From a virus: a stretch of DNA of 36,418 nucleotides. The stretch's first letter is position 1. Every line of letters begins with the position of its first letter. Location: positions 1-36,418 of the IMG/VR virus record IMGVR_UViG_3300035698_008001; one strand, 5' to 3'. The position numbers and the translations under genes are program-made. This document shows, piece by piece, positions 1-36,418 of this stretch. A model generated the notes under the pieces. It was not told where the DNA came from. It ran no database searches and saw only the letters and a list, made by a program, of their open reading frames with translations.

Positions 1-2
1 CA

Positions 3-92
3 AACAATGTAACTAAGATAACACCTGCTGGTGTATCGACTATTCTAGGTACTACAGGTTTAAGTCCAATAAGTATTGCAATAGACTTATAA
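3..92 (+). pseudogene. 3' fragment of a gene with NHL/YVTN-type repeats, outside the prophage
   Basis: The plus strand is open from the window edge and encodes most of a 40-residue repeat (NNVTKITPAGVSTILGTTG, then SPISIAIDL) before a stop. The last two codons read TTA and TAA, and the stop is completed by the first prophage base, so the insertion seems to truncate the gene. The same repeat occurs seven times in the prophage fibre gene (4387-5214) on the other strand, but many codons here differ synonymously, so this is a diverged homologue and not an assembly echo. It could belong to a host surface protein or to the fibre gene of another, adjacent prophage. The right flank does not continue the repeat. 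Confidence 0.6.
86..91. repeat. Left copy of likely target-site duplication (CTTATA)
   Basis: CTTATA occurs just outside the left end motif and again at 36224-36229 just outside the right end motif, in the same orientation. Mu-like transposases make 5-6 bp target duplications, so this pair fits. The exact boundary is uncertain by one or two bases because TTATA alone would also serve. Confidence 0.55.
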
Positions 93-97
93 TCGGC

Positions 98-133
98 AAA
101 TAGAATTGTACTCAAATGCAAATAGAATTGTAC
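98..133 (+). repeat. Left-end transposase binding repeats (two copies)
   Basis: AAATAGAATTGTAC is at 98-111 and again at 120-133. Identity extends to 16 bp (96-111 and 118-133), with a 22-bp period. Near-identical inverted copies sit at the right end. By analogy with the multiple MuA sites in attL and attR these are likely transposase binding sites; that role is inferred from position and symmetry. Confidence 0.7.
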
Positions 134-136
134 ACA

Positions 137-180
137 AAAAACCATTTAAACTACTTTTAAAAGTAGTTTAAATGGTTTTT
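137..180. terminator. 44-bp perfect palindrome, bidirectional terminator of the late operon
   Basis: The two 22-base arms are exact reverse complements around a TTTTAAAA centre, with A-runs on one side and T-runs on the other. It lies 36 bases beyond the last leftward late gene and just inside the end repeats. On either strand the RNA would form a long hairpin ending in U-rich sequence, so it probably stops late transcription from leaving the prophage and host transcription from entering. Confidence 0.8.
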
Positions 181-215
181 AAATTAGGTTTAAGAAACTA
201 TTAGTTTAAAAACAA

Positions 216-563
216 TTAAGTCCCTAAATAAGCAGTCTTCAATGCAGTAAAGGCTTCCTGCAGGGCTATTGTATCTTCCTCTAGATTGGCCATCAACTCT
301 AGTTCCTGCTCCCAGGCGAGCAGCTGTGCGCGCTGACCTCGTCTTAATTGCGATGCACTGATCTGTGAGGTGAGGTCTTTATTTGCGCTAAAAACGAGCG
401 TGTTTTCGTTAAACGTCAAGAACCCGTCTACGGCAAGTAGCGCAATGGCTAGGTCGTAATTTTCTTTCGTTATAACCTCAAATCCCTCTGGTGTTGGCAC
501 ATTGTCGCTGAGCTCTAACAGTGCGATAACTTTCTCTACTTCGCGTTTTAGTAAGTATTTCAT
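216..563 (-). CDS. Last late-operon protein, possible fibre-associated or assembly protein
   Basis: This 115-residue protein is the last gene of the leftward late operon and overlaps the upstream gene by 4 bases (ATGA), which suggests translational coupling. It is rich in leucine, glutamate and alanine, with predicted helix in the second half, and has no signal peptide or membrane segment. I recognise no family. Mu-like phages often keep small fibre-assembly or fibre-chaperone proteins at this place, so such a role is a guess from position only. Confidence 0.7.
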   Translation of the reverse strand: MKYLLKREVEKVIALLELSDNVPTPEGFEVITKENYDLAIALLAVDGFLTFNENTLVFSANKDLTSQISASQLRRGQRAQLLAWEQELELMANLEEDTIALQEAFTALKTAYLGT

Positions 564-1752: not shown

Positions 1753-2644
1753 ACGGCAGGTAGGTTATGATAAATTCCGCATTGTCGATAATAAAATAGC
1801 CGCTGTCCGCAACGCGTATCTGGTCTATTACCCCCGCATTTGCGACGGTTGTGGTCGTATAATCATGCAGCGCATATTTGCTAGCCGCTTCTCTTATTAC
1901 AGGTATTTTAACACCGGGCACACGCTGTAAAGCGTCTGTGTGGTACGCTCTTACATAGCTGTCGTTAAACTCTATGCGCTGTAAAAAGGCGCGTGTTGCA
2001 TCTTCTACAGGACTGTCACCAGTGCCGTCCAGCCGCTTGCCGTCGCTGTCCAGCACCTGTGGGTCAAAATGTATCTCAATCACCAGCTTAATAAGATCGC
2101 CTGAGCCCGTGGTTAAACGCGTGATGCTGCCTGCTGGTGTGTTTGCATTTACAAATGCCTGGCCTGCGGCAAGCTCTGCCGCGCTTACGGCTACCAGCAC
2201 ATCGCCTGCGAGCTTGGCGACTTTACCACGCATTATGATGTTGGTGCTCTCAACGGTTCTGGTGACCGCTGCATATTTAAACACCTTCATGGCGTCTACT
2301 TGTGCAACGGTGAGTGCGCTGTTGTTGTAGTTACCATTGCCGTCTGCCACTGCGCCAAATTGAAACCGCAGTATAGTCTCTTGCCACCATGCCACCGTCG
2401 CCACGCGCTGCGAGGCAATAAGCAGCTCCATACGTGCAAAGGCGGCTTCCATAAGCACCTCTAGATCGTGCTGGCTCAGTGCCATTGCATGCACCAGCTT
2501 GCGCCATTGCGCCACACGGCTTGTGCTGTCTGGTTGCAGCTGCTCAAGCTCTGTCACAGTTAACGCCTGCAAGGGCGAGAGCTCTTGCGAGGCGGCGACT
2601 GCGGCGATGATGGACTGTTGTATTTGGTCGAGAGTTCTTGCCAT
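1745..2644 (-). CDS. Baseplate wedge protein, J/Gp47-like (inferred)
   Basis: The 299-residue protein begins MARTLDQIQQSIIAAVAAS, a start typical of baseplate J-like proteins of Bacteroidota phages. The middle contains alanine-rich and beta segments, and the C-terminal part (about 195-299) resembles the region of gpJ proteins that contacts neighbouring wedges. It shares its start with the stop of the preceding gene (TAATG arrangement) and overlaps the next gene by 8 bases. Overall similarity to Mu Gp47 is weak, so the name is an inference from length, N-terminus and location. Confidence 0.6.
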   Translation of the reverse strand: MARTLDQIQQSIIAAVAASQELSPLQALTVTELEQLQPDSTSRVAQWRKLVHAMALSQHDLEVLMEAAFARMELLIASQRVATVAWWQETILRFQFGAVADGNGNYNNSALTVAQVDAMKVFKYAAVTRTVESTNIIMRGKVAKLAGDVLVAVSAAELAAGQAFVNANTPAGSITRLTTGSGDLIKLVIEIHFDPQVLDSDGKRLDGTGDSPVEDATRAFLQRIEFNDSYVRAYHTDALQRVPGVKIPVIREAASKYALHDYTTTTVANAGVIDQIRVADSGYFIIDNAEFIITYLPYE

Positions 2645-3273
2645 TAGATAAATTTTAAAATGAGTTTATAAGCATCAGTCCAACCCAAAGCAACTAAAAG
2701 TACCACAACACCAGCCAGCACCTTGCGTATGCGGCTGTAGTTGAACGTGTAGCCGTTAGTATATTCTTCAATATATTGAGCAAATTTAGCATCATTAAAC
2801 GGTGCGGTTGTGCTTTGTCGCTTGCTTATGTATTTGCTGTTTAAGTACCTAAATGGCGCGGCTATGTAGAGCAATGCTGCGCGCTTGTCTATGTGATAAG
2901 TGCTATCGCCTAGCTGTTCCATTACCTTAAACAACACCTTGTCTGCGGTTCTTATCTTTTCAATAGACGTGGTGTAGTTCACAGCGTCTAAGTAGTCGTG
3001 CATGATTGCACCTATGTCATACGTGTAGCCGTGTACTTTGTGCAGCTCTACATCGCCACTTGCACCGTCGTATTGCGTTGGGTTTTCGACAAAGTAAGCA
3101 AAGGCTATTGAGAATGTACCTAGAGCAGCAATATCGCACCCTGTATGACGCATTCCATTCAATAAAATTTGCTCGTGCTTACGCAAGGTCTCAGGCTCAT
3201 TTTTTAGCAACCAAAACGGCTGCTTTTTAAAGGCTTCACGATTTGTAAAGCCGCCTATGCTTATTTTTTTCAT
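2644..3273 (-). CDS. DUF1353-like phage protein with C-terminal membrane segment
   Basis: The 209-residue protein has a central block (MHDYLDAVNYTTS, then RTADKVLFKVMEQLG, about residues 90-123) that resembles the HDxLY...AD..F...M pattern of the DUF1353 family found in phage tail and lysis regions. A hydrophobic stretch (VLAGVVVLLVALGW, about 184-198) near the C-terminus could span the membrane. The N-terminal part includes a conserved-looking FKKQPFWLLKNEP. The function of the family is not known; in other phages it occurs next to tail fibre or lysis genes. It is coupled to both neighbours by one-base overlaps. Confidence 0.55.
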   Translation of the reverse strand: MKKISIGGFTNREAFKKQPFWLLKNEPETLRKHEQILLNGMRHTGCDIAALGTFSIAFAYFVENPTQYDGASGDVELHKVHGYTYDIGAIMHDYLDAVNYTTSIEKIRTADKVLFKVMEQLGDSTYHIDKRAALLYIAAPFRYLNSKYISKRQSTTAPFNDAKFAQYIEEYTNGYTFNYSRIRKVLAGVVVLLVALGWTDAYKLILKFI

Positions 3274-3623
3274 TATAATTTATTGGCTTTTATAAAAATT
3301 TCATCCATCTCTAACTCGGATTTGCCGAATGCCTGACCAACTAAAGACATGAGCGCGTTGCTGCGGTCAAAGGTTCCGGCTCTAAGGAAGCTCACTCGTG
3401 CTAGTGTCTTATTAGGCTCTGACAGCGTGTCTATAACTGCGATTATTTGTGATTGCGTTATGCCCTCAAATGATAGCTGCGCAAGAAACTGTATTGCCGT
3501 TACCGTGCTAGGCACTTCTACTGGTGGCTCTAGCAAAGTGATTGTCTCGAACGTTCCTGTTGTGGGCTTAACCTCGTTTATTTGCGTAGTGTTGCCTATT
3601 GTTTGCTTGTATCTAGTTGTCAT
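3273..3623 (-). CDS. Fibre-adjacent protein, possible fibre chaperone
   Basis: This 116-residue protein overlaps the 3' end of the fibre gene by 11 bases and so is translated right after it. Its second half (about 42-115) looks helical and reads like small phage proteins that follow fibre genes (pattern ...IDTLSEP...RVSFLRAGTFDRSNALM...). No membrane or signal segment is present. A role in fibre folding or attachment is suggested by the coupling but not shown. Confidence 0.65.
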   Translation of the reverse strand: MTTRYKQTIGNTTQINEVKPTTGTFETITLLEPPVEVPSTVTAIQFLAQLSFEGITQSQIIAVIDTLSEPNKTLARVSFLRAGTFDRSNALMSLVGQAFGKSELEMDEIFIKANKL

Positions 3624-5736
3624 AAATACGTGGTGTTATTTTGGTTTGAGTTCTTGAATAATAGTCAATAAAAACATCTTGGTTAGTCGTACCCGCAGCC
3701 GTTTTTTGAATTGCAAGAATGTCATGCCCCGTACTTGTATTTATATTTGTGGTGATTGTGGCGACTAAAACGCCATTAATGAAATACGCTATGCTATTGG
3801 GTGTATATTTAATCATTAACCGTACATACGCTGAATCAATTACAGGAATACCAGTGTCTACTACTGTTGAGTTTAAGCCGTTTCTTGTTACTGCTAACCA
3901 GTTGTCGCTTGCCGTTCCTAAATAGCCCCCTGCTTTATCGTAAATAAATCCATAGCAAGTGGTCGAACTTGATATTACTGCGGTGCTTGCGCGACCATAC
4001 ATAAACAAAAATTTGTTTTCTGTTGTTGCTAAATTAGCCACTCTCAATTTAACCATGTATTCTATGTTTTTATAAGCAACTGTTGTGGTGTTTATATTGA
4101 AAAACGCAGCTCTGGAACCCATTAAAGCCGTACATCTTAATATTAAAACATCATCTTCGTCAAATGCTCCGTCGCTCTCTAAACCGATAACACCACCGCC
4201 TGCGCCTTGCGCAAAGAAATTACCGTCGTTTGTGCTTGGACTTAAAAACCCATCAAAATCATTAAAATAACTAGCGCCTTTTACGATGTCAGTTTCTAGC
4301 TGTGAAACGGCTGTTATCTCTTCTGGTAAATCAGTTCTTACAATATTACCAGCGTCGTCTATTGCTAGATTTCTTCTAGTGTCTATTGTAATTTTAGTTA
4401 CGTTGTTTGAATTTTGGTTTGCAGTGTAAATATTACCTTGTAAATCTATGGTAATCCCTTGTGGATTTGAACCTGTAGTGCTTAAAATACTTGATACGCC
4501 AGCAGGTGTTATTTTAGTTACGTTGTTTGAATTAAGATTTGCTGTGTAAATATTACCTTGTAAATCTATAGCAATACCTCTTGGACTTAAACTAGTAGTA
4601 CCTAAAATAGTTGATACGCCAGCGGGTGTAATTTTGGTTACATTCTCTGAGTCAGCATTTGTGGTGTAAATATTACCTTGTAAATCTATTGCAATGTCAT
4701 ATGGACTTAAACCAGTAGTACCTAGAATAGTTGATACGCCAGCGGGTGTAATTTTGGTTACATTGTCTACATCAATATTTGCGGTGTAAATATTACCCAA
4801 TGAATCTATAGCAATACCAAATGGAGTTGACCCTGTAGTCCCTAAAATTGTTGATACGCCAGCAGGTGTAATTTTAGTTACGTTGTTTGAATCTCGGTTT
4901 GCAGTGTAAATATTGCCCGATGAATCTATTGCAATTGCTCTTGGTCTTGTGCCAGTAGTTCCTAGAATAGTTGATACGCCAGCGGGTGTAATTTTGGTTA
5001 CATTTTTTGAATTAAAGTTTGCAGTGTAAATATTACCCAATGAATCTATAGCAATACCTCTTGGACTTAAACCTGTAGTCCCTAAAATTGTTGATACGCC
5101 AGCAGGTGTAATTTTAGTTACGTTGTTTGAACTAACATTTGCAGTGTAAACGTTACCCTGTGAGTCTATAGCAATGTGAGATGAACCTAAACCAGTAGTA
5201 CCTAAAATAGCACTAACAATTTCAAAAGGTGGTATTTTAACGTCTACAACGTCATTTACAATAGTGATGTTTTGACCTGCATCTAAAACAACAGGTGCAA
5301 AAGCATTTACAGGCTGCAACATATAGTCACTTAAAAGCCCGTTTGCTTGCCCCGAATAAATGTAATAAGCATCTACCGTACCGCGAGCCACAACCGCGGG
5401 GTCTTGCGTTGCATCACCTACATAATACAAGGTGTCGCCTGACTGTGTAGCTTGTGCATTAATTAATTCATTTATGTTTTGGTACAGCTCTTGCGGTGCG
5501 CTTTCTGCGTTGCCTAAGCTCTCGATTTGCCATTGTCCCTCTATTCTATTCCACCGCGTTGTGCGGTCGGTGCTAAAGGCATACGTGCCATTTGCAGGCG
5601 TTGGGTGTGCGGTGTTTAAGGCGTTTAATGTCGCGAACGTGCCTAAATAGACCACACGCTCATTTAGCTCTTTAAAATTGTCGTCAACCTCGTCTGGGGT
5701 CAAGTCTTGGTTTTGATCTCTTCTGTATTTTATCAT
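3613..5736 (-). CDS. Tail fibre with seven NHL/YVTN-type repeats and a lectin-like tip
   Basis: The 707-residue protein has three parts. The N-terminus (1-170) begins MIKYRRDQNQDLTPDEVDDN and has the YLGTFATLNAL and GTYAFSTDRTTRWNR segments common at the virion-proximal end of Bacteroidota phage fibres. Residues 175-450 are seven 40-residue repeats with core IAIDSLGNIYTAN and NVTKITPAGVSTILGTTG, like NHL/YVTN beta-propeller repeats. The C-terminus (about 480-700) begins YFNDFDGFLSPS and looks beta-rich, like concanavalin-type lectin folds in phage tips. It most likely binds the host surface. Between repeats, variation clusters at two sites per unit. It sits between Gp46-like and Gp47-like genes, unlike in Mu. 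Confidence 0.85.
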   Translation of the reverse strand: MIKYRRDQNQDLTPDEVDDNFKELNERVVYLGTFATLNALNTAHPTPANGTYAFSTDRTTRWNRIEGQWQIESLGNAESAPQELYQNINELINAQATQSGDTLYYVGDATQDPAVVARGTVDAYYIYSGQANGLLSDYMLQPVNAFAPVVLDAGQNITIVNDVVDVKIPPFEIVSAILGTTGLGSSHIAIDSQGNVYTANVSSNNVTKITPAGVSTILGTTGLSPRGIAIDSLGNIYTANFNSKNVTKITPAGVSTILGTTGTRPRAIAIDSSGNIYTANRDSNNVTKITPAGVSTILGTTGSTPFGIAIDSLGNIYTANIDVDNVTKITPAGVSTILGTTGLSPYDIAIDLQGNIYTTNADSENVTKITPAGVSTILGTTSLSPRGIAIDLQGNIYTANLNSNNVTKITPAGVSSILSTTGSNPQGITIDLQGNIYTANQNSNNVTKITIDTRRNLAIDDAGNIVRTDLPEEITAVSQLETDIVKGASYFNDFDGFLSPSTNDGNFFAQGAGGGVIGLESDGAFDEDDVLILRCTALMGSRAAFFNINTTTVAYKNIEYMVKLRVANLATTENKFLFMYGRASTAVISSSTTCYGFIYDKAGGYLGTASDNWLAVTRNGLNSTVVDTGIPVIDSAYVRLMIKYTPNSIAYFINGVLVATITTNINTSTGHDILAIQKTAAGTTNQDVFIDYYSRTQTKITPRIYDN
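4387..5214 (-). repeat. Seven tandem 120-bp repeats coding for the fibre propeller
   Basis: Seven units of 120 bp (40 codons) repeat without gaps; the last is short by four codons. Nucleotide identity between neighbouring units is high, with fast-changing bases at codons about 9-13 and 27-30 of each unit. Because the period is a multiple of three, gain or loss of units by recombination would keep the frame. A diverged unit on the other strand lies outside the prophage at 3-91. Confidence 0.9.
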
Positions 5737-17747: not shown

Positions 17748-19259
17748 ATGCTTAGAAAAGATAAAATAGCCCTAGAACGCTACCGCGAGAAATTAAAACT
17801 TGCGGCTAGTTCTGGTACGATAAATTTTGACGAGACCAAAGACGAAAAGCGCGAGCGGATTGCTCTTTTTAAAAAAGACTATGCCGCTTGTACCACGCAC
17901 TATTTCCCGCACTATGCGACCAGCGCGATACCTGATTTTCACGTAAGGTTTGCAAAAATGGTTCTCAAGGACCCTGCTGGCAAGTTTTTTGCCGAGTGGG
18001 GACGTGCCCTGGCAAAATCTGTGTTATGCGATGTCACCGTGCTATACTGGCTGTGGCTCAATGACGAGGTAAAATATGCCGTAATCATAGGCAACAGCAA
18101 GGACAAAGCAAAACAGCTGCTAGAAGACATACAGGCCGAGTTTGAGGGCAACCCACGAATCATCGCCGATTTTGGCGAGCAAAAATTAGAAGGCCACTGG
18201 GAAGCTGGTGACTTTAGAACACGCAGCGGCTTTATAGGCAAGGCACTGGGCATGGGTCAGAGCGTGCGTGGACTGCGGGTGCAGTCCCAACGCCCCGACA
18301 TTGTCATCTTAGACGATATAGAGACTAAGGATCTGGTTAAGAACCCAAGGCGGCAAGACGAGATGGTGCGGTGGATAGAACGCGACCTGTTGCCTACCAT
18401 GGATGGCCGACGACGCAGAATGCTGTACGCAAACAACAGGTTCTCGCCTCGTATGATACAAACAGAGCTGCAAAATAGACACCCTAAATGGAAGGTGCAC
18501 CATGTTAAGGCCTATAACCCGGTGACCTACGAGCCTACGTGGCCAGGCAAGTATAGCGCGCAATACTTTAAAGATATAGAGAGTGAAATAGGCATACTGG
18601 CAGCAAGAGCAGAGTACCTGAACGAGCCGCACATAGAGGGTAAGATCTTTACGCAAGAGCAAATACAATGGGGCAAGCGGCCAGCGTTAAACCATTTCAC
18701 AATTATTGTCGGACACTGGGACATCGCATACGCAGGTACAGCAACAGCAGATTTTAACGCAGTAAAAGTGTGGGGCCTGCACGGCAAGAATTTTTGGAAT
18801 ATCGACAACTTTGTCAAGCGCACTAAAATGCGCCAGGCACTGGAATGGATGTGCCACGTACAACTTCATTTACCGCCTACAGTGGCTATACACTGGCGGT
18901 ATGAATCGCAGTTTTGGAATGACGAGGTAGAGCGTACCATACGCGAGGTAGAGGCGCACCATAAGATACAGCTCAATTTAATTAAGGTAGACACGCCGCG
19001 AACTAAAAAGTACGATCGCATGATGATGCAACAAGTGTACTACCAAAACGGCCGTGCCTACTATGACGAGAAATTAAAATCGCATAACGATACACAAACA
19101 GGTATCGCGCAGCTCTTGTCGCTAGAACCCGGCTACAATAGCAATGACGATGCGCCCGATGCAGATCAGCAATGCTTTGAGTTCTTAAGTAAACATATAA
19201 TGAGCAGCAATGGCAGGCCTATCGCTATGGGAAATTATGAAACTAAACACCGATTTTAA
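17748..19259 (+). CDS. terL: Terminase large subunit (Mu Gp28-like)
   Basis: The 503-residue protein has the two terminase domains. In the ATPase, a degenerate Walker A (WGRALAKS, 84-91), a Walker B with adjacent acid (DIVILDDIE, 184-192) and the motif MLYANNRFSP (225-234) are visible. The nuclease starts near 320 with GHWDIAYAGTATADF (Asp325) and ends with acidic APDADQQ near 466-472. It packages DNA by the headful mechanism in Mu-like phages, cutting in flanking host DNA. Confidence 0.9.
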   Translation: MLRKDKIALERYREKLKLAASSGTINFDETKDEKRERIALFKKDYAACTTHYFPHYATSAIPDFHVRFAKMVLKDPAGKFFAEWGRALAKSVLCDVTVLYWLWLNDEVKYAVIIGNSKDKAKQLLEDIQAEFEGNPRIIADFGEQKLEGHWEAGDFRTRSGFIGKALGMGQSVRGLRVQSQRPDIVILDDIETKDLVKNPRRQDEMVRWIERDLLPTMDGRRRRMLYANNRFSPRMIQTELQNRHPKWKVHHVKAYNPVTYEPTWPGKYSAQYFKDIESEIGILAARAEYLNEPHIEGKIFTQEQIQWGKRPALNHFTIIVGHWDIAYAGTATADFNAVKVWGLHGKNFWNIDNFVKRTKMRQALEWMCHVQLHLPPTVAIHWRYESQFWNDEVERTIREVEAHHKIQLNLIKVDTPRTKKYDRMMMQQVYYQNGRAYYDEKLKSHNDTQTGIAQLLSLEPGYNSNDDAPDADQQCFEFLSKHIMSSNGRPIAMGNYETKHRF

Positions 19260-31739: not shown

Positions 31740-32609
31740 CTACTTAACTTCTAGTGTGCGCTGCTGCTTAGTGCTTCTAGCTAAACGTTGTTTAATCTCA
31801 ATGTCACGCTTCACACGTCGCAAGTCATTGTCGCTGTTTTGATATATGTAGAGGATGTCGTCTTGGTCTGTTATGCCGTTTGCCACAGCGATTGCCTTAA
31901 CATCATTCAGATTTATTGCGTCTAGTTTTATGAACCTGCGGCCTATGCGGCTGTAGAGTTCTGCATAGCCTATTTTATCGCGGTTAAAACCGTTGAGAAC
32001 CCGCTTTTCTAATGCCTTAACACCTGAAATTATAAAGCCTGCATGTCCATTTAAATCGTTATAAAAGTCCATAAACAAGTCTATTTGTGGATCTTTCAGC
32101 TTGTCGAACTGATCTATAATAACGAGCGGGTGCGTGAGGCCTTTTAAGTGGTTTATAAATCGCTCAATAAGCTGCTCTGTAGTTCCCAGACCCTCTAAAC
32201 CAGCCGCAATTAAAAGGTTGCGCATGTAGCTCTTTTTGCTCCACGAGTTCTTACACTGTATGTAAATCACGTTTGTCCCCTGGCGGTCGTAAGCCTTATA
32301 AGCCTCAGTCTTACCGAGCCCAGCTGCATCACTTATGGCCATGGAAACCGACTGTTCCTGGGCGTGGTTTAAAATGCTGTGTATAAGGCCAAAGTTTGCG
32401 GTTTCTACCGTTACCCAGTTGGGATCTATACCTAATGAAACTTTAACACGGGACCACATCTCGTCTGAGATGTTTTCCCAGTTGCCGTTAATCATTTGTG
32501 AGATAGTAGCAGTAGATACTGCACACTGTAGGGCAAGTCTTTTCTGCGATTTGCGCTTGCTCATGCGAGCGAGCTCGCGTGACATCATTGTTTTGGAAGG
32601 TGTGTTCAT
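31740..32609 (-). CDS. MuB-like transposition target ATPase
   Basis: The 289-residue protein has an N-terminal HTH (about 20-43, QKRLALQCAVSTATISQMI) and an AAA ATPase domain with Walker A DAAGLGKT (94-101), Walker B PLVIIDQFD (161-169) and sensor-like FIISGVKALEKRV. This is the MuB architecture: ATP-dependent binding of target DNA and activation of the transposase. It follows the transposase gene (19-base gap), as in Mu. Confidence 0.9.
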   Translation of the reverse strand: MNTPSKTMMSRELARMSKRKSQKRLALQCAVSTATISQMINGNWENISDEMWSRVKVSLGIDPNWVTVETANFGLIHSILNHAQEQSVSMAISDAAGLGKTEAYKAYDRQGTNVIYIQCKNSWSKKSYMRNLLIAAGLEGLGTTEQLIERFINHLKGLTHPLVIIDQFDKLKDPQIDLFMDFYNDLNGHAGFIISGVKALEKRVLNGFNRDKIGYAELYSRIGRRFIKLDAINLNDVKAIAVANGITDQDDILYIYQNSDNDLRRVKRDIEIKQRLARSTKQQRTLEVK

Positions 32610-32628: not shown

Positions 32629-34626
32629 TTACATTCTTAGTAAAAAGGAGTCAGCCTCGGCAGCTGTGCGCTGCTCTTTAGGAAGCTTGCCGCCAAATTT
32701 GTGTGCTAGTTCTTGCTGGTCTATCATGCTCTCTGGCGTGATGCCCGTGCGCTGTTGTAGCTGTAGATGTTCACGTTCTATACGAGCCATTTCTGTATCG
32801 CGCACCTTGCGCATTTTGTGCGCATGTTCATGATCGCCGGTGGTCATAAGTACTGGAACTTGTTTGAGTTTCTTTACCGGTTGTGCGTCTGCAATGAAAA
32901 CTCGGTCTTTGTTAGGCAGCTCCATGAGCAGGCGTACATAGTTGTCTAGCTGGTCAGGGTCATATTGAATAAAAAACTTAGCCTCTGTGTACTTGTCTCT
33001 AAAGTCTAAGTCTGGCATGCCGTTTTCGTCATAAACCTCAAAGTGATACTGCGTCTTGCCTATTATTGGCTTAATGCCATCGCGCTCATAGCGGCGATTG
33101 TCCTTGGCTGTGACCCAAAACATGTCCATTATCTCAAACATGTTTAACCCTTCTCGCATGATTGCCTCACGATTGTATACCTGATTGCGCGTTTCTTGAA
33201 ACTTTGGGTGGCGCATGGTGTTCCAGTTATTTACCTCTTGTTTAAAGATGATTATAAGCTCCTCAACGGTGTGCAGACGATGCTTGTTAGACATAACAAA
33301 GTCTACATTCATTTTGCTGTTAAGCGTGTGACTGCTCGCGATGCCCTGACCGTCGCTAAACCACTTAGTATTGAGCACCTGTTGTTGGAATCTCTTAAAA
33401 AGCTGCTCAGCTGGTGAGCCGTGTTCCCTTGCGCGGTGCTTGTAGTGCGTTCCGCCGTTTTTTGCGACCATTTTACTATACAAGTCTTGCATGGTAGCGG
33501 TGGTATGGCCGCCTTGACCGTCGTAGTTAATAAGAAATGGGCGTGAGCCGCTTTCGTGCGCTGCCATTTTAAGTGCCTTAAAGTGGTGCTGGTAGTTTTC
33601 GTGTTCAGTGCCTATATAGTAGCCGAGTATTTTCTCAGAAAACACATCGAATACAACGTCTATTTTCATGTCTGCACCCATGCCCATCTTGTTGTCTTTT
33701 ATGTGCATCCAGTCCAGTTTCGTTCCATCTATTGCCCAGTGGCAATTTGGAAACATGTCACTGTGGTCGCGGGTAATCTTATGGCCATATATGCGACGGT
33801 ATTCCTCAGCACCATGGCGAGGTAAAAACCATTTTTTACGTTGCGTGGGCTTTTCTAGCCACATTCCTATTGCTCGTTCAGATAGTTCTGGCCAGCCCAT
33901 GGCATCGCGAGTCTTCATATATTGCGTGTGCAACACAGGCACTACAGGCTTGTTAGGTAAGCAGTAGCTTGCAAGAAGCCAGTCGGCAATGTCGCCTGTT
34001 ATTTTAACGCTGTTAGACACTGAGCCTAGACTACTGTGTATAAGAGTTTTGTAGCCGTCTTTTTTATATGCCGCGAGCTTGCGGTCTAGTGCGCGGAAGT
34101 TGCTGGGGAGCTTGTGCGGGTACTTTGCTTCTTTGCCACCATCTTGGTTAATAGCCTTAAGATCATTTATGACAGCAACGATGTGTTGTTTTGTGCTTGT
34201 CATCTTAATACCCGCGCCCTGGCGTTTCTTACTGGCCATTTTAAGGCACTGCTCTTCGTAAAGGTTGAGAATTATGGCCTCAGCATAGTACTGCACTATT
34301 TTACTTGCAGGTATGCCAGAACCGTTTTCAAACTTATACTTTTCAAAGAATATGGCCGCGGCACTATCTGGTTGCAGCTGGTTGATAAAAGACTTCACGC
34401 TGTCCAAATTGTACGGGTCCCCAAATGCTTTTTTAATCGCAGTCTTAAAATCGGCAGGTACAGACTGCCATGCTATAAGACCGACACGTCCGTTTCCGGC
34501 AGTGCGAAGCCTGCGCAACTTATTGCGCTGCACCCATTTCTTAAAAACTTCATAGTCAAGAAGTCCAAGGTGGTCATAAAATACGCTCTGATCGACGCAC
34601 ATCGTGTTTTGAAATGGGTGGTACAT
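32629..34626 (-). CDS. DDE transposase, MuA-like
   Basis: The 665-residue protein has the size of MuA. The RNase H core has the catalytic triad Asp300 (HWAIDGTKLDW), Asp369 (LINYDGQGGH) and Glu407 (EHGSPAEQLFK). Residues about 10-60 form a Mu-type winged-helix start (DQSVFYDHLGLLDYEVFKKW, RRLRTAGNGRVGLIAW), and 240-285 hold part of the end-binding region. The C-terminus (about 575-665) is helical and basic with QRTGITPESM, likely contacting MuB. It catalyses strand transfer in integration and replication. Confidence 0.93.
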   Translation of the reverse strand: MYHPFQNTMCVDQSVFYDHLGLLDYEVFKKWVQRNKLRRLRTAGNGRVGLIAWQSVPADFKTAIKKAFGDPYNLDSVKSFINQLQPDSAAAIFFEKYKFENGSGIPASKIVQYYAEAIILNLYEEQCLKMASKKRQGAGIKMTSTKQHIVAVINDLKAINQDGGKEAKYPHKLPSNFRALDRKLAAYKKDGYKTLIHSSLGSVSNSVKITGDIADWLLASYCLPNKPVVPVLHTQYMKTRDAMGWPELSERAIGMWLEKPTQRKKWFLPRHGAEEYRRIYGHKITRDHSDMFPNCHWAIDGTKLDWMHIKDNKMGMGADMKIDVVFDVFSEKILGYYIGTEHENYQHHFKALKMAAHESGSRPFLINYDGQGGHTTATMQDLYSKMVAKNGGTHYKHRAREHGSPAEQLFKRFQQQVLNTKWFSDGQGIASSHTLNSKMNVDFVMSNKHRLHTVEELIIIFKQEVNNWNTMRHPKFQETRNQVYNREAIMREGLNMFEIMDMFWVTAKDNRRYERDGIKPIIGKTQYHFEVYDENGMPDLDFRDKYTEAKFFIQYDPDQLDNYVRLLMELPNKDRVFIADAQPVKKLKQVPVLMTTGDHEHAHKMRKVRDTEMARIEREHLQLQQRTGITPESMIDQQELAHKFGGKLPKEQRTAAEADSFLLRM

Positions 34627-34884: not shown

Positions 34885-34925
34885 CAAATATATAACGAAT
34901 GGTTGGTTTAAACCAAACATTCGTT
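34885..34925 (-). promoter_or_regulatory. Early leftward promoter overlapped by a 32-bp operator
   Basis: TATATTTG (complement of 34885-34892) is the -7 element, with TTG 21 bases upstream. The near-perfect palindrome 34894-34925 (arms AACGAATGGTTGGTTT and its complement with one mismatch, centre TTTAAA) covers the -33 element and the spacer. A bound repressor dimer would block early transcription. It also covers an alternative ATG (34899) of the repressor frame, so autoregulation is possible. Confidence 0.85.
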
Positions 34926-34940
34926 AGAAAAAATCTCAAT

Positions 34941-35726
34941 ATGGATGATATAAATATAAGAGTAGGGGAAGTTATTCAATCGTTAGGCCTTACTACAACA
35001 GCAATAGCTAAAAGATTAGGGGTCTCTTGGACTACTATAAATAATTACACAAAAGGTAGAATTCCTGACGGTAGGACCTTAATTTCATTCAAACAAAAGT
35101 TGGATGTAGATGTAAATTGGTTGCTTACCGGTGAAGGTTCTATGTTTTTAAACAAAGAAGGTTGGGTGAAGCCTAGCACGCATAATTTTGTTAGAGACTC
35201 AATGACACCTTATGTAATCTCAGCAAACGCACAGGGTGAAGAGAATGTAATCCTGGTACCTCACTATGCGCAAGCTGGCTATTTAGACGGTTATGGTGAT
35301 CCCGAGTACTTGGAGATGCTTCCATCTTATAGACTGCCGCTGCTAAACAACGGCACTTTTAGAATGTTCGAGGTTAAGGGGCATAGCATGACGCCTACAC
35401 TACACGATAGTAGCATTGCAGTAGGCGAGTGGTGCGAAAACTTTACAGACATACAAGATGATCAGATATATATAGTCGTCACTAAGGACGACGGCATCGT
35501 TATAAAGCGTCTACTAAATCGTATCGATAAATATGGTAATCTCTATCTTAAATCAGACAACAGGTCTGAATACCCATCTTACACTATAAAGCCAGAGGAC
35601 GTCGTAGAGCTCTGGAAACTTAAGACCGCATTTGTATTTAACTTTTCAAACCCCGCAGATTTGTACGATCGGGTTACGGATTTAGAGTCCGAGATGATGC
35701 AGCTGCGCGCTGTTTTGGTCAAATAG
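34941..35726 (+). CDS. CI/LexA-type repressor with S24 autoprotease
   Basis: ATG at 34941 is chosen because the earlier ATG (34899) lies inside the operator. The 261-residue protein has an N-terminal HTH (about 15-42, TTTAIAKRLGVSWTTINNY) and a peptidase S24 domain: cleavage site Ala112-Gly113 in QAGYLDG, nucleophile Ser149 (GHSMTPTL), Lys189 (IVIKRL). The C-terminus adds a short coiled segment. It maintains lysogeny and can probably be cleaved after DNA damage, unlike Mu c. Divergent with the early operon. Confidence 0.92.
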   Translation: MDDINIRVGEVIQSLGLTTTAIAKRLGVSWTTINNYTKGRIPDGRTLISFKQKLDVDVNWLLTGEGSMFLNKEGWVKPSTHNFVRDSMTPYVISANAQGEENVILVPHYAQAGYLDGYGDPEYLEMLPSYRLPLLNNGTFRMFEVKGHSMTPTLHDSSIAVGEWCENFTDIQDDQIYIVVTKDDGIVIKRLLNRIDKYGNLYLKSDNRSEYPSYTIKPEDVVELWKLKTAFVFNFSNPADLYDRVTDLESEMMQLRAVLVK

Positions 35727-35945: not shown

Positions 35946-36100
35946 AAATTGTACCGTTTTTAGGACCCACCTTATCTTGTATTAATGTGTGGTTGTTTAC
36001 CTTTGTATTGCTTGTCATAGCGGCAATGCACGCTATTTAAGCTCATGGTATATCTAGCTGGTTTAAAACGCACTTAAAATGGCTTTAAATGGCATTTAAT
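35946..36100. other. Early-end non-coding stretch
   Basis: Between the 12-bp repeats and the inner right-end repeat no certain gene is seen. It contains the 24-codon minus-strand frame (36018-35944), one lone AATTGTAC (35947-35954) related to the end motif, and AT-rich sequence around 36060-36100. Mu has its internal activating sequence in the comparable place. Confidence 0.4.
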
Positions 36101-36219
36101 GTACTTTTCTATTTACGTAGGGTGGACAAAAAAAAGCCCATAAAAAAAGCCCAATGCTTTGTAAACACTGGGCTTCTTAGACCTTTTTTGAACTTCTTTA
36201 TAATTGTACTATTCTATTT
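36101..36219 (-). repeat. Right-end transposase binding repeats (two copies, inverted)
   Basis: Read leftward, AAATAGAAAAGTAC (36101-36114) and AAATAGAATAGTAC (36206-36219) match the left-end motif at 12 of 14 and 13 of 14 positions. They face inward and lie 105 bp apart, whereas the left copies lie 22 bp apart. Asymmetric spacing of end sites is also a feature of Mu. A weaker relative may be present at 35853-35866. Confidence 0.7.
36147..36175 (-). terminator. Leftward terminator inside the right end
   Basis: A 10-bp stem with one non-pairing position (AAGCCCAGTG read leftward) is followed by a run of seven T, and after ATGGGC by a second T-run. It would stop host transcripts from entering the repressor and early region antisense from the right. 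Together with the palindrome at 137-180 it insulates the prophage at both ends. Confidence 0.75.
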
Positions 36220-36223
36220 ACCC

Positions 36224-36229
36224 CTTATA
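36224..36229. repeat. Right copy of likely target-site duplication (CTTATA)
   Basis: The hexamer matches 86-91 at the left end in the same orientation and lies directly outside the right end motif, as expected of a duplicated insertion target. Confidence 0.55.
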
Positions 36230-36418
36230 CAGGTAGATACCAATCAGTACAAAAATCGCAGGTTTGATTTATTTTTAAAGCTAAAGAAAGACGTACCCAA
36301 AAAAGCCATTGCACCGTACCGCATACGTTCCATAGCCGTTTATCCTAACAATACCATACCGCTAGACAGCGTGCAATTAGATACCACAAGGTTTAATAGC
36401 CGTAGTTACCTACAAAAA
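36224..36418 (+). CDS. Partial host open frame at the right flank
   Basis: The plus strand is open without a stop through the whole flank and to the window edge, coding 65 residues with normal composition (for example TNQYKNRRFDLFLKLKKDV, then IAPYRIRSIAVYPNN). It is cut by the prophage end on its 5' side. If the prophage is removed at CTTATA, the left flank would read into a stop after three codons and this frame would be out of phase by one. The family is not recognised. Confidence 0.5.

Follow-up and report, generated by a model that had tools for sequence, protein, structure and literature searches.

The stretch of DNA analysed here, referred to as the window, covers an entire IMG/VR record (36,418 bases) and comprises a whole virus contig. 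Assembled from a metagenome, it contains a transposable (Mu-like) phage resembling Peternella, probably from a Nonlabens-like flavobacterium, with a Mu-like gene set including a MuA-type transposase, a MuB-type ATPase, a CI-like repressor and a terminase, and with head genes for a portal/head-morphogenesis protein, a head protease and a major head protein. The features relevant to the two ends of the contig are the following:

1..87, + strand: left flank, a fragment of a phage-type fibre gene holding one unit of a 40-residue NHL-type repeat, outside this phage genome
88..133, + strand: left phage terminus (TATAATCGGC), with transposase-type end sites at 98-111 and 120-133, 22 bp apart
2644..3273, - strand: gene adjoining the fibre, which moves with the fibre cassette (window 2684-4298 shares 83% DNA identity with the IMG/VR fibre locus L005)
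3613..5736, - strand: tail fibre, with Pfam matches to SBBP, NHL and Vgb_lyase and unit offsets of 120 nt
17748..19259, + strand: terminase large subunit (phrog_38, E 7e-61; 58% identity to Peternella_1)
31740..32609, - strand: MuB-type transposition ATPase (phrog_296 DNA transposition protein, E 3e-43)
32629..34626, - strand: MuA-type transposase (phrog_310, E 4e-48; 50% identity to Peternella_1, 74% to the metagenomic record G443)
34899..35726, + strand: CI-like repressor with a Peptidase_S24 domain match (phrog_4, E 6e-30)
36100..36228, - strand: right phage terminus (…CTATTTACCCCTTATA), with end sites at 36205-36218 and 36100-36113, 105 bp apart
36229..36418, + strand: right flank, an internal fragment of a host tamL gene (Omp85/POTRA outer-membrane protein; 67 loci, 46-72% identity)

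The phage carries both the MuA-type transposase and the MuB-type ATPase that mark transposable phages of the Peternella/Winoviridae type, as well as conserved termini with inverted end sites, beyond which each record continues into unrelated DNA; the likeness to this type was judged from comparisons of TerL, MuA and the termini only. The short target duplication that surrounds a single insertion is not present in the window, which argues against one insertion accounting for both flanks, not against a transposable phage.

The phage termini

The left-terminus pattern, i.e. TATAATCG together with two end sites 22 bp apart, was recovered from 53 IMG/VR contigs and from 7 of 397 Flavobacteriaceae genomes, while the reversed control of the pattern gave 0 matches. 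It was through this pattern that relatives were found, as a MuA peptide-pattern query of IMG/VR gave no match; neither did a blastn search of phage isolates with window positions 1-400. The DNA preceding the shared terminus varies between records, and one 39,649-base IMG/VR record (G459), apparently Peternella_1 itself, begins exactly at TATAATCG and ends with CCCCTGTA (TA). Because the relatives and this record share a terminus starting with TATAATCG, the left boundary of the phage falls between positions 87 and 88. TATAA (88-92) is thereby the phage's own terminus, common to relatives inserted elsewhere. The sequence-only reading had extended the flank to position 92; its last five bases, along with the apparent TAA stop, are instead the end of the phage.

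At the other end, the end site is an inverted copy of that on the left. Three comparisons define where the phage stops: G443, whose MuA is 74% identical, has an identical CTATTTACCCCTTATA followed by other sequence; the metagenomic record G454 reads CCCCTTATA and then CATA at its right end, matching the CATA ahead of its left end; and the 10 tamL relatives inspected have a phenylalanine codon before the conserved Q/E, where the window has ATA. As these agree, the right boundary lies between 36228 and 36229, and not at 36223 as previously proposed. The left end of the window, with two sites close together on the tail side, corresponds to the right end of Mu, and its right end, with sites 105 bp apart beside the repressor and transposase, to the Mu left end.

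Three other records with the left-end motif deserve description. In L165 (1-359), two left-end motifs face each other at a distance of about 350 bp; we considered it as an insertion into a related phage and rejected this, the two motifs belonging to one phage end. In L166 (11951-14520) the motif directly adjoins an 11.9-kb phage-like flank in which a primase/helicase, a DNA polymerase and a lysozyme are encoded; beyond the motif in the other direction follows a diversity-generating type of reverse transcriptase. L166 may represent a second example of such an end within a different phage. L187 (39-3583) has a left-end flank with a terminase fragment and with a transposase of two genes, IstA/IstB-like as judged by eye, the reading frame of which crosses the phage end.

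A fibre repeat on the left and tamL on the right

The plus strand at positions 3-86 encodes NNVTKITPAGVSTILGTTGLSPISIAID, in which 26 of 28 residues match the repeat of the phage's own fibre ORF (3613-5736), where an NHL/SBBP-type array with a 120-nt period extends over approximately 4387-5247. The match is not due to chance, given E = 3e-11 in tblastn within the window. At the DNA level, 85 nt align with the nearest own unit at 86% identity, corresponding to about 12 base differences, most of them silent, and 2 residue differences. The earlier description, namely that the flank encodes the 40-residue repeat of the fibre in opposite orientation and with many synonymous differences, was hence accurate. 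Derivation of the flank from the phage's own fibre was dismissed, since even the best own unit reaches only 86%; with 2 residues and about 12 of 85 bases differing, the flank represents a genuine allele that has diverged, rather than a copy.

Viral fibre loci in IMG/VR (n = 28) are 50-93% identical to the flank peptide, as compared to at most 43% for the cellular NHL proteins retrieved from Flavobacteriaceae genomes, placing the left flank in the phage fibre repeat family. Such cellular proteins are present in 41 of 397 genomes of the family, and among 23 Nonlabens genomes a single match to the repeat was detected, at 29%. As cellular NHL proteins reach only 43%, the flank is best understood as a fibre allele of another phage or prophage rather than as a host adhesin. 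The 87 bases would fit either a different phage or a variant of the window phage as source. An IMG/VR search with a degenerate pattern made from the variable stretch of the flank did not return the donor of the fragment.

The fibre itself belongs to a mobile unit. Together with its downstream gene (window 2684-5647) it shares 82-89% DNA identity with L005 (274-3480) and L006 (9123-11979), whose fibre repeat units are also 87-88% identical to the left flank. The shared cassette starts within the fibre, from YLGTF onward, after a phage-specific N-terminus (YLGTFATLNALNT...). Outside the cassette, L005 and L006 have no significant DNA similarity to the window except for one 62-bp patch, and they have terminase and portal (L006) or head-protease (L005) genes of their own. 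The fibre cassette is exchanged among otherwise unrelated phages, with the left flank as one more allele. The NHL-type repeat is widespread in fibres of IMG/VR (L005-L032), including those of very large phages (L008 is located in a 430-kb contig), and the whole window fibre yields weak matches only, at 24-31%, among annotated phage isolates.

The right flank aligns with the conserved Q(A)DTNQY...FDLFLKLKKDVP segment of TamL from 67 loci, with the best match (72%) in a Nonlabens MAG, where the full gene encodes Omp85 and POTRA domains. In the 10 tamL relatives inspected, the residues before this segment are TamL (e.g. GYYNFNSGFLIF) and never the repeat; the repeat gene is therefore not a natural neighbour of this tamL segment, and judging from these alignments the host is probably Nonlabens-like. 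No match was obtained when viral contigs were searched with the right-flank protein. The earlier observation that the repeat is not continued in the right flank holds true, the flank being tamL.

Two junctions, probably of one phage population

The flanking 4-mers of the window are GACT on the left and CAGG (or TACA) on the right, with no shared 4-bp target duplication. CTTATA, which occurs at both junctions, was also considered as a 5- or 6-bp duplication and rejected, being located mostly inside the phage termini, while TTATAA is palindromic, so that direct and inverted repeats alias. Among relatives with both ends visible, 9 of 14 have a 4-bp duplication (G155, G352, G394, G419, G444, G445, G446, G454 and G458, all with TA termini; ends within L117-L128 and L216-L232). 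All 7 relatives that come from genomes or isolates are among these, with the source type of an IMG/VR record deduced from its identifier. When left and right ends of different phages were deliberately mispaired, 2 of 182 combinations matched. Discordant flanks similar to those of the window are found in the metagenomic G443, G449, G450 and G460, and G441, with only three flank bases, mismatches as well. G443 (L216-L217), the closest relative, is bounded by CTAG and TGTT; its right flank encodes a SpoU rRNA methylase and a histidine kinase gene.

In the window, the junctions are located exactly at the phage termini, the flanks stem from unrelated genes, no duplication joins them and the left flank is of the phage-fibre repeat family. 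With tamL on the right and no target duplication, the two ends represent two different insertion junctions. The sequence-only reading had instead proposed that the locus was rearranged or that the repeat ended there, a view which the unrelated host gene and the missing duplication now replace. We consider it probable that the contig displays two transposition junctions of one phage population, with the fibre gene of a co-resident phage as one of the targets. Replicative transposition would join copies of the phage genome to many different target DNAs, and a contig from such a population would have a shared body with arbitrary flanks, carrying at each end one junction from two separate insertions. 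The right target would be the host tamL. On the left, the target would be a fibre gene that holds an allele of the same horizontally exchanged cassette and belongs either to a second phage or prophage of that host or to a variant of the window phage. The discordance may then originate from assembly of replicative copies or virion DNA of the population, and the fibre target would be a co-resident phage or prophage. Most simply, the two-junction pattern is a property of a population in a metagenome and need not signify a rearranged locus.

Congruent with this reading, variable host DNA is known to flank the packaged genome on either side in virions of transposable phages (PMC5977238), and hybrid phage/host reads have been reported for Peternella (PMC8776804). 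In one study, the target of 0.4% of transposition events was another copy of the same phage (PMC5977238), and Mu largely excludes its own genome as target (PMC7350765). The heterogeneity of flanks at the termini was deduced from assembled sequence. Flank length was not taken as proof of virion packaging, as the window's left end matches the right end of Mu. Left ends in IMG/VR are positioned less than 150 bp from the contig edge in 20 of about 50 cases, to which provirus trimming by the database may contribute. The following speaks against the two-junction reading: the fibre repeat array is shorter than 1 kb, so that random insertion there is rare and some enrichment or luck is required; flanks are concordant in two metagenomic relatives (G444 and G454); and the IMG/VR search did not yield the donor of the fibre fragment.

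The main rival, which we hold to be unlikely, is a single clonal lysogen in which intramolecular replicative transposition rearranged the chromosome by inversion or deletion, leaving one old and one new flank, namely tamL and the fibre gene of a resident prophage. Exactly true termini, unrelated flanks and the absence of a duplication are all predicted by such an event, and the longer discordant flanks of G443 (369 and about 2,500 bp) suit it too. On the other hand, all seven prophages from genomes or isolates are concordant, suggesting that such products are uncommon among stable lysogens, and the contig stops 87 and 190 bp beyond the phage, where a longer assembly would be expected unless the repeat array halted it.

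Less probable still is a chimeric assembly or library artefact that misjoined a fibre fragment to the phage end. Repeat arrays with multiple alleles in one sample are prone to misassembly; however, a random misjoin would not respect a terminus that is defined independently in other phages, and the repeat and terminus have just a couple of bases in common at the junction. With the join placed precisely at the terminus, a random chimera is improbable.

The sequence-only reading offered three origins for the flank, among which a related phage or prophage entered at its fibre gene fits best. A host adhesin, or another cellular NHL-repeat protein sharing the repeat with the phage by exchange, seems very improbable: the family does encode such proteins, but the tested ones are far below the viral fibres in identity to the flank, and the Nonlabens genomes offered only the one poor match. 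A spare or invertible fibre cassette of the window phage beyond its end we regard as practically negligible, as despite the opposite orientation of the repeat relative to the fibre and the exchange of cassettes between phages, such a copy would sit beyond the terminus used in transposition and be left behind when the phage moves, and other records have different flanks before the same terminus, with no match to the fibre repeat in any flank of at least 30 bp.

The pattern of joins is the ordinary biology of this phage group combined with metagenome assembly, and returning to the two-junction reading, the only unusual remainder is that the left target is of the same exchanged fibre family, a single 87-bp case of little weight. 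It follows for metagenomic contigs of transposable phages that the two flanks need not share one locus, and such flanks should not be read as signs of a host adhesin or of a rearranged prophage locus. The analysis also fixes the termini and the 4-bp target duplication for flavobacterial transposable phages, provides with the tamL flank a pointer to a Nonlabens-like host, and documents a fibre cassette common to otherwise unrelated phages. One may speculate, though we deem it distinctly improbable, that insertion of transposable phages into the fibre genes of co-resident phages is frequent enough to be of consequence as one route of fibre exchange. If so, virions packaging flanking DNA would bring pieces of rival fibre genes to new hosts, homologous recombination with the own fibre could generate new alleles, and transposition would be one route for cassette exchange between the window phage and unrelated phages.

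Relation to known transposable phages

The closest isolate found is Peternella_1, a Winogradskyella phage and hence of a different host genus, with TerL and MuA similar over nearly full length (58% and 50%); its fibre is absent from the matches to the window fibre. Peternella_1 replicates by replicative transposition and has been assigned to the proposed family Winoviridae (PMC8776804). Hankyphage p00 and the Porphyromonas transposable phages (proposed Alisviridae) are likewise transposable phages of Bacteroidota, but far more distant, with a transposase about 28% identical to that of the window in the Porphyromonas phages and a TerL of 29% in hankyphage p00, whereas the window transposase and terminase are much closer to those of Peternella_1. 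Bounding repeats of 4 bp, the length seen in relatives of the window phage, are reported for the Porphyromonas phages (PMC10367356), as opposed to a target duplication of 5 bp for Mu (PMC8705779); that of B3 is 6 bp, compared to 4 bp in the flavobacterial and other relatives. With Mu the window phage shares the MuA/MuB-type transposition genes, the attachment of variable DNA to the genome ends and the arrangement of end sites, two close together at the tail end and two distant at the repressor end, while the termini differ, being TG/CA in Mu and TA in the window phage.
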